64,000 bases of DNA from Marinactinospora thermotolerans DSM 45154. Its GTDB lineage: Bacteria; Actinomycetota; Actinomycetes; Streptosporangiales; Streptosporangiaceae. The notes below the pieces were generated by a model that was given only the letters and a program-made list of their open reading frames with translations, ran no database searches and had not been told where the DNA came from. Shown here one piece after another: positions 14,194 to 17,896 of the stretch. The stretch is taken from contig NZ_FUWS01000001.1 in NCBI RefSeq assembly GCF_900167435.1, positions 601,313 through 665,312 of the forward strand, in the 5' to 3' direction. A program made the position numbers and the translations under genes. Every line of letters begins with the position of its first letter. Position 1 is the first letter of the stretch.

Positions 14194-14487
14194 TCACCGA
14201 GGGGGGTCGATGGTGTGCCGTTCCTCCTCGGCGACCTCCAGTCCGCTCTCGATGACGCCGTTCATGATGCGGGCGAGGCGTTCGGCGCCGAGGCGCGGCG
14301 CCCGCCGGGCCATCGCCGCCACGACCGCGCGTTCACGCTCGGGGTCGCGTCCGGCGAACCCGCCGACGGGCTTGAGACGTTGCACGTCGGCGGCGAGCAG
14401 GGCGCGCCGCTCCAGCAGTTCGGCCAGTGTCGCGTCGACCTCGTCGATACGGGCGCGCAGTTCGGCGAGGGAAGGGCTGGTGGTCAT
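14194..14487 (-). CDS. Chorismate mutase, AroQ class
   Basis: Converts chorismate to prephenate, the committed step to phenylalanine and tyrosine. It has 97 residues and is all-helical, as the AroQ fold requires: helix 1 LAELRARIDEVDATLAELLERRALLAADV holds the conserved R, D, E and R positions, followed by K (in RLKPVGG) and the ERERAVVAAMARRAPRLG helix, then IMNGVIESGLEVAEEE. There is no signal peptide. An upstream leader peptide with Phe and Tyr codons and a terminator suggests attenuation. The ATG at 14487 lies about 70 nt after the terminator. Confidence 0.92.
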   Translation of the reverse strand: MTTSPSLAELRARIDEVDATLAELLERRALLAADVQRLKPVGGFAGRDPERERAVVAAMARRAPRLGAERLARIMNGVIESGLEVAEEERHTIDPPR

Positions 14488-14560
14488 CTGGGTCGTCTCC
14501 TCGATCCGGTGGACGCGGCCGGCGGGCCCGTCCGGGAGGGAGGGACGGCCGACCGCCACG

Positions 14561-14600
14561 AAAAGGAAAAGAGCGCGAGGTCGGTGACCTCCGCGCTCTT
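14561..14600 (-). terminator. Attenuator terminator upstream of chorismate mutase
   Basis: Reading the minus strand, AAGAGCGCGGAGGTC and GACCTCGCGCTCTT form a 14-bp stem with one bulged G and a 3-nt loop, followed by TTTTCCTTTT. No longer minus-strand gene ends upstream of it, only the 20-codon leader, so it is best read as a conditional terminator in the chorismate mutase leader. A further perfect 11-bp pairing joins 14647-14657 (inside the leader ORF) and 14603-14613 (just before the terminator). Confidence 0.75.
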
Positions 14601-14623
14601 CGGCCGGCTCCGCTCCGCCGCCG

Positions 14624-14686
14624 TCACATGTCGGCGGCCGGCTGCTGCGGAGCCGGCTCGCTAAACAGGCGATAGCGGTGGAACAT
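14624..14686 (-). CDS. Phe/Tyr leader peptide of chorismate mutase attenuator
   Basis: A 20-codon ORF encoding MFHRYRLFSEPAPQQPAADM. Three of its first eight residues are aromatic (F2, Y5, F8). Y5 and F8 use TAT and TTT, which are rare in this GC-rich genome. Its ATG lies 7 nt after a TATCAT box, so translation should start at the 5' end of the mRNA. It is followed by the terminator described at 14561-14600 and then by a chorismate mutase of the Phe/Tyr pathway. Ribosome stalling at the aromatic codons when Phe or Tyr is scarce would change the downstream folding. The exact antiterminator pairing is not clear to me. Confidence 0.65.
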   Translation of the reverse strand: MFHRYRLFSEPAPQQPAADM

Positions 14687-14693
14687 GCCGCTG

Positions 14694-14699
14694 ATGATA
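14694..14699 (-). promoter_or_regulatory. Putative -10 box of chorismate mutase leader (leaderless)
   Basis: TATCAT on the minus strand, followed by CAGCGGC (7 nt) and the leader-peptide ATG. The rest of the interval up to 14907 is AT-richer than the surroundings and should also hold the promoter of the divergent protease gene; I see no clear operator in it. Confidence 0.5.
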
Positions 14700-14907: not shown

Positions 14908-16740
14908 ATGCCATCCCCTTCGCCCGGTTTCGACCTCTCTTGGCAGGTCCGGATCATGACCCCTGACGGTTACGTGGTGGGAGGCGGGATCCTGCTCCCC
15001 GGCGGCCACGTGGCGACCTGCGCCCATGTCGTGCGCGACGCGCTGTGCCTGGAGGACACGGACCTGCCACCGGCCCCGGCCGAGGTCGTCGTCGGCACCG
15101 AGGACGGACAGCGCCGCGCCGCCGGGCTCCTGGCCGAGCACTGGGACGACGCGCTCGACATCGCCGTGCTGACGCTGCGGGACGCGCATCCGGTCGGCGC
15201 GGCCGTCCAGTTGGGTCGTGTGGCCACGGGGCCCCGTCCGCGCAGGGTCCGCGTCCACGGCTATCCCCAGGGGGTCGAGGGCGGGTTGACGGCCCGCGCC
15301 GAGGTGGTGGGACGGGGCGGCACCCGTCTCGGACAGCTCCAGGTCGACATCGACCGCTCCCATCCCGTCCCGGTCGAGGGCGGTTTCAGCGGCTGCGGGG
15401 TGATCGACGATCTACAGGGCCGGGTGGTGGGCATCCTCACCAGCCGCGTCGAGGGGTTGATCCCCGAGGACGGGCGCACCGCCTTCATGATCCCGGTGGA
15501 ACAGGTCCCGTTCCTGCTGGATCTCCTCACCGCGCAGGAGGAGGCCACCCTCGCCGTCCGCCGCTGGCTGTCCGGTCTGCGCTTCGGCGCGATCCGCAGC
15601 GCCTTCGACGAGGCGATGCACGGCCGCGCCGACCATCCGCGGGAGGACTTCGGCACCGCCCTGGATGCCTACGACTACCTCGCCGACCTGACCCCCGACG
15701 ACGACGGCCTGCCACGCGACGCGATCTTCCTGGAGGAGGTGCGCGCGCGGGGCCTGTGGACCGGGGAGGGGCTGTCGGAGACCATCGACCGCCACCACCG
15801 CAACACCCTCGCCGAGGAGGAGTGGCGCGGGCTGATGCGACGCTCCCGGGCCCCCCGTCCCCCGGAACGGGCCGAGGCGCCCTGGCTCATCGTCTGCGCC
15901 GAACCGGTCGAAGGCGACCTCGACGGCCCCGAGCGCTACACCGTCACCTCCTGGACCGTCTCCGGGGGGCCGCGGCCCGGCTACAGCAGGGGGAGCGGCC
16001 GAACCGTCACCCGGGAGACGCTGGAGGAGACGGTGCTGGAGATGGTCGACGCCGCGAAGCGGCTGCCCGGGGCCGTCTCCCACGGCCTGAACCTCCAGTT
16101 CGTCCTCCCCTTCTCCCTGCTGGCGTGGCAGGTGACCAGGTGGGGGCGGCCGGCGCCGATCACCGGGATCGTCCAGCCCATCGGCGGCGCCCACGAGATC
16201 GTGCTGCGCTGCTGGGAACTCCTCTACAACGACCACCCGCAATGGCGGGACGTGCACGCCCAGTTACGCAAGCACCAGCACGCGCTTTCGGCCCGCAAGG
16301 AGGGCGACGTCTACTGGGTCTCGACCTCGACGACGAGCGAGACGGCCCGCAGGACGCTCAACACCCATCTGGCCGACGAGGAACTGGTCGCGTGCGTTCT
16401 GGGCGCAGATCCGCGCACCTCCGAAGGCTATGAACAGCTCGGCATCGCCCTGACCACCGGAATCCCGATCATCGTGTGGTTACGCGGAGACGCGGAGGGG
16501 ACGGAACTTTTCCACCGCCATGTGCGACCGTTTCTCGGCGGCGACCGGGAACGCCTCTCACTGGCGAAAATCGAGGCCCTTCCGCACGCCTTGAAAAAGT
16601 TCCGCACGGGAAGTGAGATAGGATCCCGGCAGGAGGGAAGCGGCTATGATCCGCTCGAAGTCAGCATGGTTTACGAAATTTCGTCACAAATGCCCGATCC
16701 GCCCGATCTTGCTGATTTCCACCCGCACCACAGCAGGTGA
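14908..16740 (+). CDS. Trypsin-like protease with VMAP C-terminal domain
   Basis: A 610-residue protein that opens with a chymotrypsin-fold serine protease: His40 in GGHVATCAHVV, Asp84 in DALDIAVLTL and Ser161 in EGGFSGCGVID complete the triad, and no signal peptide precedes it, so it acts in the cytoplasm. After a helical middle part (about 200-320) comes a C-terminal domain of the vWA-MoxR-associated protein (VMAP-C) type, with LNLQFVLPFSLLAWQVTRWG and, near the end, LGIALTTGIPIIVWLRGD. It starts a row with a MoxR ATPase and a vWA-STAND-TPR protein. In the published classification such proteases are effectors or effector activators of conflict systems; the target is unknown. The last 90 codons use many A/T-ending codons, unlike the rest. 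Confidence 0.85.
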   Translation: MPSPSPGFDLSWQVRIMTPDGYVVGGGILLPGGHVATCAHVVRDALCLEDTDLPPAPAEVVVGTEDGQRRAAGLLAEHWDDALDIAVLTLRDAHPVGAAVQLGRVATGPRPRRVRVHGYPQGVEGGLTARAEVVGRGGTRLGQLQVDIDRSHPVPVEGGFSGCGVIDDLQGRVVGILTSRVEGLIPEDGRTAFMIPVEQVPFLLDLLTAQEEATLAVRRWLSGLRFGAIRSAFDEAMHGRADHPREDFGTALDAYDYLADLTPDDDGLPRDAIFLEEVRARGLWTGEGLSETIDRHHRNTLAEEEWRGLMRRSRAPRPPERAEAPWLIVCAEPVEGDLDGPERYTVTSWTVSGGPRPGYSRGSGRTVTRETLEETVLEMVDAAKRLPGAVSHGLNLQFVLPFSLLAWQVTRWGRPAPITGIVQPIGGAHEIVLRCWELLYNDHPQWRDVHAQLRKHQHALSARKEGDVYWVSTSTTSETARRTLNTHLADEELVACVLGADPRTSEGYEQLGIALTTGIPIIVWLRGDAEGTELFHRHVRPFLGGDRERLSLAKIEALPHALKKFRTGSEIGSRQEGSGYDPLEVSMVYEISSQMPDPPDLADFHPHHSR

Positions 16741-16765
16741 AACCCCGTCCTAGGAAGGTCCGCCG

Positions 16766-17896
16766 ATGGCGTCTGTCCCGTCATCCGAGCCGGGGCGAGC
16801 GCCCGGGAGCGACCACGGCGGCGAAGCGAGCCCGCAGATCCCCCGTTGGTGGATCTACCGCGGCACCGGGCGACCCCGCGACTACCTCGACCTCGCCTCC
16901 GAACTCCCCGCCCCGCCCCCGTGGCGGCGCTTCGACGGAGGCCCCCTCCAGCCCGCCCCGCCCGACGACCACTCCGAGATCACCCGGATGCTCGGCACGG
17001 CGACCCCGCGCTCCCGACCGCCGACCCCTCACGAGACCGAGGTCATCGACGCGGTCAACACCGCGCTCCTGCTCCGCCGGCCGCTCCTGGTCACCGGCGA
17101 CCCCGGGGTCGGCAAGTCCAGTCTGGCCTACCGGGTGGCCCACGAGCTCAAACTCGGCCGGGTGCTGCGCTGGCCGGTCAACAGCCGCAGCACGCTGCGC
17201 TCGGGACTGTACGAATACGACCCCATCGCCCGCATCCACGACATCTCCGCCGACACCGCGGGAGGAGGGGGCGACCAGCAGCGCGCGGCCGATCGCCCCA
17301 TCGGCGACTACCTGCGCCTGGGACCGTTGGGCACGGCCCTGCTCCCCCACCGGCTGCCCCGGGTCCTGCTCATCGACGAGTTCGACAAGGGCGACATCGA
17401 CCTGGCCAACGACCTGCTCGACGTCTTGGAGAGCGGGCGTTACGCCATTCCCGAACTCGCCCGCCTCCGGTCCCGCCATCCCCGGATCACCGTGCCCACC
17501 GACGACCCCGACCGCGCGTTCACCGTGCACAACGGCGAGGTCCGCTGCTGCGCCTTCCCCTTCATCATCATCACCAGCAACGGCGAACGCCCCTTCCCAC
17601 CCGCCTTCCTGCGCCGCTGTCTGCCCCTCCGGCTGCGCCGCCCCAGCGAGACCGAGCTCGCCGACATCGTCATGGCCCACTTCGGAGGCCGCCTGCGCAG
17701 CGACGACCACGAGCTGATCCGCCGCTTCATCGAACGCTCGGGAGAACTCGACGGGCTCTCCGTGGACCAGCTACTGAACTCCGTCTATCTCGCCAGTTCC
17801 GCCGGGCACCCCCCTGGCGCATCCTTGGACTCCGACGCCTGGGGCCGGGTACTCAGACTGGTCTGGCAACGCCTGACGGAAGCGGGCCACGGGTGA
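16766..17896 (+). CDS. MoxR-type AAA+ ATPase of the conflict block
   Basis: A 376-residue AAA+ ATPase. After a proline-rich N-terminal 90 residues come Walker A LLVTGDPGVGKSSLAYRVA, an arginine-rich pore-side region (RWPVNSRSTLRSGLYEYD), Walker B VLLIDEFDKGDIDLANDLL, sensor 1 IIITSNGERPFPPAFLRRC and a lid domain. It differs strongly from the second MoxR in this window (61975). The ATG is 26 bp after the protease stop, with AGGAAGG upstream, and its stop overlaps the next gene by four bases (GTGA). It is expected to act as a chaperone-like switch on the vWA partner. Confidence 0.88.
   Translation: MASVPSSEPGRAPGSDHGGEASPQIPRWWIYRGTGRPRDYLDLASELPAPPPWRRFDGGPLQPAPPDDHSEITRMLGTATPRSRPPTPHETEVIDAVNTALLLRRPLLVTGDPGVGKSSLAYRVAHELKLGRVLRWPVNSRSTLRSGLYEYDPIARIHDISADTAGGGGDQQRAADRPIGDYLRLGPLGTALLPHRLPRVLLIDEFDKGDIDLANDLLDVLESGRYAIPELARLRSRHPRITVPTDDPDRAFTVHNGEVRCCAFPFIIITSNGERPFPPAFLRRCLPLRLRRPSETELADIVMAHFGGRLRSDDHELIRRFIERSGELDGLSVDQLLNSVYLASSAGHPPGASLDSDAWGRVLRLVWQRLTEAGHG

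Follow-up and report, generated by a model that had tools for sequence, protein, structure and literature searches.

Sequence evidence for an aromatic amino acid-sensing leader upstream of chorismate mutase, part of a large leader family in Actinomycetes

The AroR leader of aroF, the DAHP synthase gene of Corynebacterium glutamicum, was reportedly described by Neshat et al. in 2014. The available parts of two papers describe a Phe-Tyr-Phe leader for aroF (PMC4046766, PMC11802643), and one of them states that aroF is raised on Phe limitation and not on Tyr limitation (PMC11802643). For several other actinobacterial leaders, of the trp, leuS and ilv kind, the mechanism is called unclear in the available text of two further sources (PMC1262725, PMC8079986). 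The first of these, in the same portion, reports no conserved upstream structures for the phenylalanine and tyrosine operons of Actinobacteria (PMC1262725), while the available text of the second gives eight leaders for Streptomyces lividans, none assigned to Phe or Tyr (PMC8079986). Among the matches listed by our literature searches, which reached few subscription journals, none in its available text concerned a leader before a stand-alone chorismate mutase gene. Amino acid leader peptides are thus a known kind of regulator; as far as the literature searches reach, what is new here is the breadth of the family, its chorismate mutase branch and the missing antiterminator.

Layout of the leader locus

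The locus lies on the minus strand of the window, i.e. the whole 64-kb stretch of Marinactinospora thermotolerans DNA that was analysed. The following features were located.

14694..14699 (-): -10 element TATCAT, 7 nt 5′ of the leader ATG, read from the sequence
14624..14686 (-), stop included: leader peptide ORF, MFHRYRLFSEPAPQQPAADM, from the sequence and aligned relatives
14672..14674 (-): Tyr codon 5, TAT; the sensor-region Tyr codons of relatives are mostly TAT
14663..14665 (-): Phe codon 8, TTT, the conserved sensor codon, from conservation in relatives
14647..14657 (-): strand A, GCCGGCTCCGC, pairing with C and with B, from three-way covariation
14637..14643 (-): strand B, AGCCGGC, local partner of A, from A:B pairing in relatives
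14603..14613 (-): strand C, GCGGAGCCGGC, distal partner of A, from folding and covariation
14569..14600 (-): terminator hairpin T, 14 bp with one bulged base, from sequence, folding and paired changes in relatives
14561..14570 (-): U-rich tail, TTTTCCTTTT, read from the sequence
14548..14554 (-): strand E, GGTCGGC, a possible partner of C, placed by eye and weakly supported
14194..14487 (-): chorismate mutase, AroQ type, 97 aa, the presumed target, from Pfam CM_2

A sequence-only reading of this stretch had already picked out the TATCAT box 7 nt ahead of a 20-codon ORF with F2, Y5 and F8, an 11-bp pairing about the end of that ORF, a 14-bp terminator stem and an AroQ chorismate mutase downstream, and each of these was recovered, the stem with one bulged base. 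The ORF runs from an ATG at 14686 through 20 codons to a TGA, and, given the position of the box, its mRNA is probably leaderless. Whereas F2 is encoded by TTC, the TAT and TTT codons are indeed rare, as had been proposed, since four CDSs of the window give TTT:TTC and TAT:TAC ratios of 1:73 and 5:51. The first base of the TTT codon stands 8 nt from strand A. A and C form a perfect 11-bp pairing with the leader stop codon inside the loop, the end of C is 2 nt from the terminator stem, and the U-rich tail is followed after about 70 nt by the start of the chorismate mutase gene, the product of which matches Pfam CM_2 (PF01817; E value 7.4e-14, score 52.2 bits, cut-off 27). Upstream, the next gene is divergent (14908-16740, + strand), leaving no minus-strand gene that would need the terminator, as the sequence-only reading had also argued; the terminator is hence assigned to the leader transcript.

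The 146-nt leader stretch folds more stably than dinucleotide shuffles (z = -4.45; 0 of 200 equally stable), and terminator T was recovered by a simple consensus scan that yields 0.5 such sites (sd 0.8) in shuffles. A consensus scan of the leader region returned no sigma-70 promoter because no -35 hexamer matched. Neither the window nor seven related loci reached the gathering score of any Rfam 15 family; the only sub-threshold match was to a microRNA model and was taken as chance. In the region 14908-17896 of the plus strand, divergent from the leader, a trypsin-like protein that carries VMAP-C and VMAP-M0 domains is encoded ahead of an AAA_5 ATPase, an arrangement that looks like a vWA-MoxR-associated (VMAP) conflict system.

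A covarying leader family and its target genes

Homologous loci were collected by a chorismate mutase (CM) scan with one genome per species, of which 80 were kept. A leader script, its criteria being a short ORF, an aromatic core and a -10 element, matched 65 of the 80 (66 of 81 sequences counting the window), and a covariance model built from those 66 sequences added six loci, bringing the element to 71 of the 80 homologous loci, a degree of conservation that excludes a chance origin. The orthologue comparison by which the sequence-only reading had proposed to be judged thus came out in its favour, with leader, aromatic codons and stems kept. Nine loci lacked the element by script and covariance model; among these, L016, L028 and L041 begin less than 400 nt before the match and L035 begins 885 nt before it, while at L026, L030, L060, L067 and L074 the element is absent as far as the covariance model sees.

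The covariance model matched 227 of 297 genomes of the order, in 41 of 62 genera. In the class it matched 71 of 394 genomes, including 32 from the family of the window organism; some of the 39 matching genomes beyond the order have short partial matches only. In a Nocardia-like family, which seems to hold relatives of Nocardia, Rhodococcus and Corynebacterium, it matched 42 of 81 genomes (22 of 31 genera). Removal of duplicates reduced 197 elements to 167 distinct ones. L191, which has no recognisable leader, was left out of all counts. Also outside the 167 are the six elements added by the covariance model at homologous loci and 17 of 91 loci that gave no row in one extraction; a less strict inspection of these 17 gave, at 13, a leader followed 788-1151 nt further on by a CM motif, whereas L128, L129, L131 and L218 remained empty. 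A TANNNT box stands 6-7 nt ahead of the leader start in 161 of the 167 distinct relatives, a figure inflated by the use of such a box as one criterion for picking the start. To judge from these sequences, the window leader is one member of a large Actinomycetes leader family.

Within the genome of the window organism, a second match to the covariance model (L083, G000:C30) covers model positions 25-120 only, is preceded by a stretch that encodes no aromatic leader and sits between unrelated genes, and it was taken as chance. A search of the same genome with TGGTGGTGG was uninformative (312 matches). A trpE-like gene of this genome is also preceded by a leader, VRTDQALQRWWRRS (L211, G000:C33), whose -10 box lies 7 nt ahead of it.

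The pairings are carried by compensatory changes. Over the 66 aligned sequences, 94.2 % of cells are paired when A:C, a short inner helix and T are taken together and 98.1 % for A:C alone, against 31-50 % for slid control structures. Double-sided changes number 69 cells versus 15.8 in shuffles, with 0 of 500 shuffles equal. Of the 10 aligned pairs of T, 8 have changed on both sides among the relatives, and the base of A:C nearest T is the least variable part in the 66 sequences. Helices of A:C were defined ungapped, as a gapped duplex fold over-extended them and was dropped. All 7 of 7 pairs are kept for both A:B and A:C in 97 of the 167 elements, and the three strands change jointly, reading CCGGCUC/GAGCCGG/GAGCCGG for A/B/C in 45 elements and GCCGACG/CGUCGGC/CGUCGGC in ten Nocardiopsis-like elements. 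Hairpin T, known as sequence and with termination predicted, was found in 156 of the 167 elements, and the C-T gap is -1 to 5 nt in 149 of those 156.

An outer helix joins codons 2-5 to bases 3′ of the stop codon. Its mean score is 15.7 versus 13.1 when partners are swapped among sequences (sd 0.18, 50 swaps), a signal that is weaker against letter shuffles (p at most 0.05 in 54 of 167, mean z 1.39); in the window the outer helix is weak, being short and overlapping C. Variants of the layout also occur. Two CM leaders of family f21 (L188, L193) keep A, B and C without a terminator hairpin. In 15 DAHP synthase leaders (11 of the 167 by pattern plus L286-L289 by eye), C is followed by a strand that pairs with it, replacing the usual T, and at L236 the hairpin containing C ends in a run of seven U, making C itself half of a terminator.

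The 167 distinct elements stand before CM (56), a longer CM-type gene (50), DAHP synthase (56) and tyrS (1), with four unclassified by script. The sequence-only reading had taken a stand-alone chorismate mutase as the target, which holds in the window and is too narrow for the family, where DAHP synthase, fusions of CM to a DAHP-synthase-like domain and tyrS are found as well. Relatives of the window have as target either a stand-alone CM or a CM behind a DAHP-synthase-like domain (two tested). In L072:2347-3270 and L018:2329-3252, CM is fused behind a shortened DAHP-synthase-like domain of about 220 residues with a partial Pfam match. As the CM of Mycobacterium tuberculosis is activated by a separate DAHP synthase, according to the available text of PMC4281200, the fused domain may by analogy be a built-in activator without remaining catalysis. 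Beyond the order the target is mostly DAHP synthase and once a tyrosyl-tRNA synthetase, and one family there has leaders before both DAHP synthase and a CM-type gene in the same genome; in the Nocardia-like family, 30 of 30 returned loci precede DAHP synthase. The tyrS case, the one seen, is L155 (G621:C21), where the same leader layout has a single Tyr codon. Directly 3′ of the CM gene in the window lies dnaE (13948-10421, - strand), and a DnaE-like frame lies directly 3′ of the CM fusion at L164:1487-3001; this neighbourhood may be old.

Scattered reports of actinomycete leader peptides come together here in a single covarying RNA family reading Phe, Tyr and Trp, which stands before the enzymes of the first step and of the branch point in aromatic biosynthesis. 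Since many actinomycete natural products draw on aromatic amino acids, the leader control point may also matter for production strains.

Sensor codons and candidate mechanisms

The last Phe codon ahead of strand A is TTT in 161 of 165 elements, versus 1:73 TTT:TTC in window genes, and this bias is not produced by the RNA model because TTT is present at the sensor codon in 64 of the 66 sequences found without one, the window included. Sensor-region Tyr codons of relatives are likewise TAT in 112 of 137 cases, versus 5:51 TAT:TAC in the window. The spacing between sensor codon and A peaks at 8 nt (86 of 156 elements) and falls within 5-10 nt in 152 of 156; the script favoured an aromatic codon 5-14 nt before A, so that the range is partly built in and the peak at 8 is not. 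Of the Phe/Tyr control proposed by the sequence-only reading, the Phe part is borne out by a single conserved TTT, while Tyr is present in the sensor region of 63 of 106 CM leaders.

Among the DAHP synthase leaders, 40 of 56 have Trp in the sensor region (typical cores YWRF and YFWF), versus 0 of 106 CM leaders, and the tyrS leader contains Tyr but lacks both Phe and Trp. This pattern is expected if all three aromatic amino acids are read ahead of DAHP synthase, the first step shared by the pathway, and two of them ahead of the Phe/Tyr branch, though Trp content is partly confounded with taxonomy, most DAHP synthase and CM leaders coming from different families; in family f21, the DAHP synthase leaders of one large genus have no Trp ahead of strand A. 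From codon identity and placement, the leader peptide in all likelihood responds to the charging of tRNA-Phe, in many cases together with tRNA-Tyr, and very probably gives the cell a means of detecting a shortage of aromatic amino acids.

The element was proposed to be an attenuator. It contains a predicted leaderless leader peptide with aromatic control codons matching the product of the target pathway, a first hairpin across the leader end and stop codon, and a terminator between leader and target. The textbook antiterminator that competes with T was not found. Among helices of at least 5 pairs, no conserved pairing with either T arm reached 40 % of the 66 aligned elements. Sequestration of the T 5′ arm, compared between the stalled and stop-codon states, rose by more than 0.3 in 1 of 155 elements and went in the reverse direction in 79 of 155, a lowering that we leave uninterpreted, the masked region being simply the remaining free RNA. 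Escherichia coli controls stalled at their control codons took up the 5′ arm clearly (0.84 pheL, 0.62 trpL, 1.00 thrL), with values no higher than 0.04 at the stop codon. In the same test, the window genome's trpE leader gave 0.61-0.77 sequestration at every ribosome position, so that the test may be blind in GC-rich leaders.

Equilibrium folding gave T a mean probability of 0.90 in every ribosome state, and the 8 of 156 elements with a value below 0.5 in each state are attributed to misassigned T hairpins. As a measure, terminator probability has little sensitivity: pheL falls to 0.10 or lower, trpL to 0.76, thrL stays at 1.00, and the own-genome trpE leader shows no clear signal here either. 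Mean openness of the ribosome binding site was 0.404 with no ribosome, 0.415 with one stalled and 0.403 with one at the stop codon (n = 151), and on stalling it shifted by more than 0.2 up in nine elements and down in six. With T equally probable in all ribosome states, any effect must act on termination efficiency; with binding-site openness unchanged too, the output of the A/B/C switch is invisible to equilibrium folding. A classical antiterminator was accordingly rejected, with reservation, on conserved complementarity, terminator probability and 5′-arm sequestration, and attenuation of the textbook pheL/trpL type is not supported by this modelling in the leader family.

The best overall explanation, which is moderately probable, is that a tRNA-Phe-sensing leader sets chorismate mutase expression, with a two-hairpin terminator as the candidate means. 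With ample Phe, the ribosome would clear the TTT codon and A:C would form directly against T, the two together making a two-hairpin terminator at which transcription would stop. With scarce Phe, the ribosome would wait with TTT in its A site and its leading edge over the start of A; A:C would fail to close at its T-proximal end, hairpin T would remain single and more polymerases would read through, making an antiterminator hairpin unnecessary. The two-hairpin step in itself is put forward tentatively, at somewhat less than even confidence, from three features: C abuts T, the T-proximal base of A:C is least variable and a ribosome stalled at TTT would cover it. The available text on Mycobacterium smegmatis reports that two tandem hairpins are better terminators than single ones (PMC8355165). 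Aromatic leaders before aroF in two Corynebacterium-like genomes (L283 and L284, identified by eye), with W-R-F-Y-F, A:C, T and no clear B, fit the two-hairpin step as its minimal form. Against it stand the roughly 15 variant leaders where C pairs with the following strand and the lack of T in some CM leaders (L188, L193); at L236, where the C hairpin is the terminator, masking A should favour termination, the opposite of what is needed.

Classical attenuation through an antiterminator unseen by simple folding (a short helix, pseudoknot or triplex) that competes with T on stalling is an unlikely alternative. The layout is otherwise classical, with its control codons, first hairpin holding the stop codon in its loop and intrinsic terminator; the AroR report gives, in its available text, the classical direction of response (PMC11802643). 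In the available account of Streptomyces venezuelae trpE, the attenuation model explains the data only with RNA triplexes permitted (PMC4833913), which suggests that actinomycete attenuators may more widely lack a plain antiterminator, and the own-genome trpE leader gave no clear signal in the arm test. A hidden antiterminator nevertheless has to contend with the lack of pairing to the T arms and with the near-absence of 5′-arm uptake where the E. coli controls were positive.

It is less probable again that masking of A frees C to pair with E past the terminator and so alters the region before the ribosome binding site, acting as a switch of translation or mRNA stability. C:E pairing exceeds shuffles overall (mean z 1.19), C outscores its own reversed copy in 115 elements and underscores it in 33, C and E covary by eye in Nocardiopsis-like leaders and between L147 and L165, and C pairs directly with the following strand in the 15 DAHP synthase variants. 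However, C:E has p at most 0.05 in 43 of 167 elements and lies above that value in the other 124, ruling it out as a universal element; openness of the ribosome binding site is independent of ribosome position; and such a switch would make a strong terminator superfluous. A plain short gene with a constitutive terminator and no sensing, its peptide perhaps functional in itself, is already disfavoured and highly improbable: the C-terminal residues PAPGEPV are similar among many leaders of the order, but they are encoded by the A and B strands and vary along with them, the synonymous choice of TTT, unneeded for peptide function, is the most constant feature, and codon content tracks the target gene.

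Returning to the two-hairpin terminator, its extension to a class-wide attenuator without antiterminator, in which the stalled ribosome itself antiterminates by masking the upstream half of the terminator, is slightly less probable than the step it generalises. If true, it would control both entry to the pathway (DAHP synthase) and branching (chorismate mutase), as well as at least one aminoacyl-tRNA synthetase, via matched sets of Trp, Tyr and Phe codons. It sharpens the question of how attenuation in actinomycetes operates where no textbook antiterminator is to be found, and the natural variants (with or without B, with or without T, CM or DAHP synthase as target) make the mechanism testable.

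Comparison with known leaders

The E. coli pheL-pheA system resembles the window locus in its Phe-rich leader peptide, its intrinsic terminator and a target that includes chorismate mutase. It differs in that the pheL antiterminator occupies the terminator 5′ arm on stalling (0.84), whereas the window family shows none, and in that pheA is fused with prephenate dehydratase, whereas the window target stands alone. The pheL mRNA is not leaderless. The trp, leuS and ilv leaders of Streptomyces and other Actinobacteria share, in the available text, control codons and GC-rich terminators, and several of them are leaderless (PMC1262725, PMC8079986).

The closest likeness is to AroR. The target in the window is chorismate mutase and not DAHP synthase, its leader has no Trp codon, and strand B, distinct in the window and in most relatives, has no clear counterpart in the two Corynebacterium-like leaders. 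Those same two leaders, compared by eye as AroR-type, share the -10 spacing, the F-Y-F run, A:C and an abutting terminator, and AroR itself has in common an aromatic leader peptide, Phe as the effective signal and a target in the aromatic pathway. The AroR leader of C. glutamicum probably belongs to the same leader family as that of the window.
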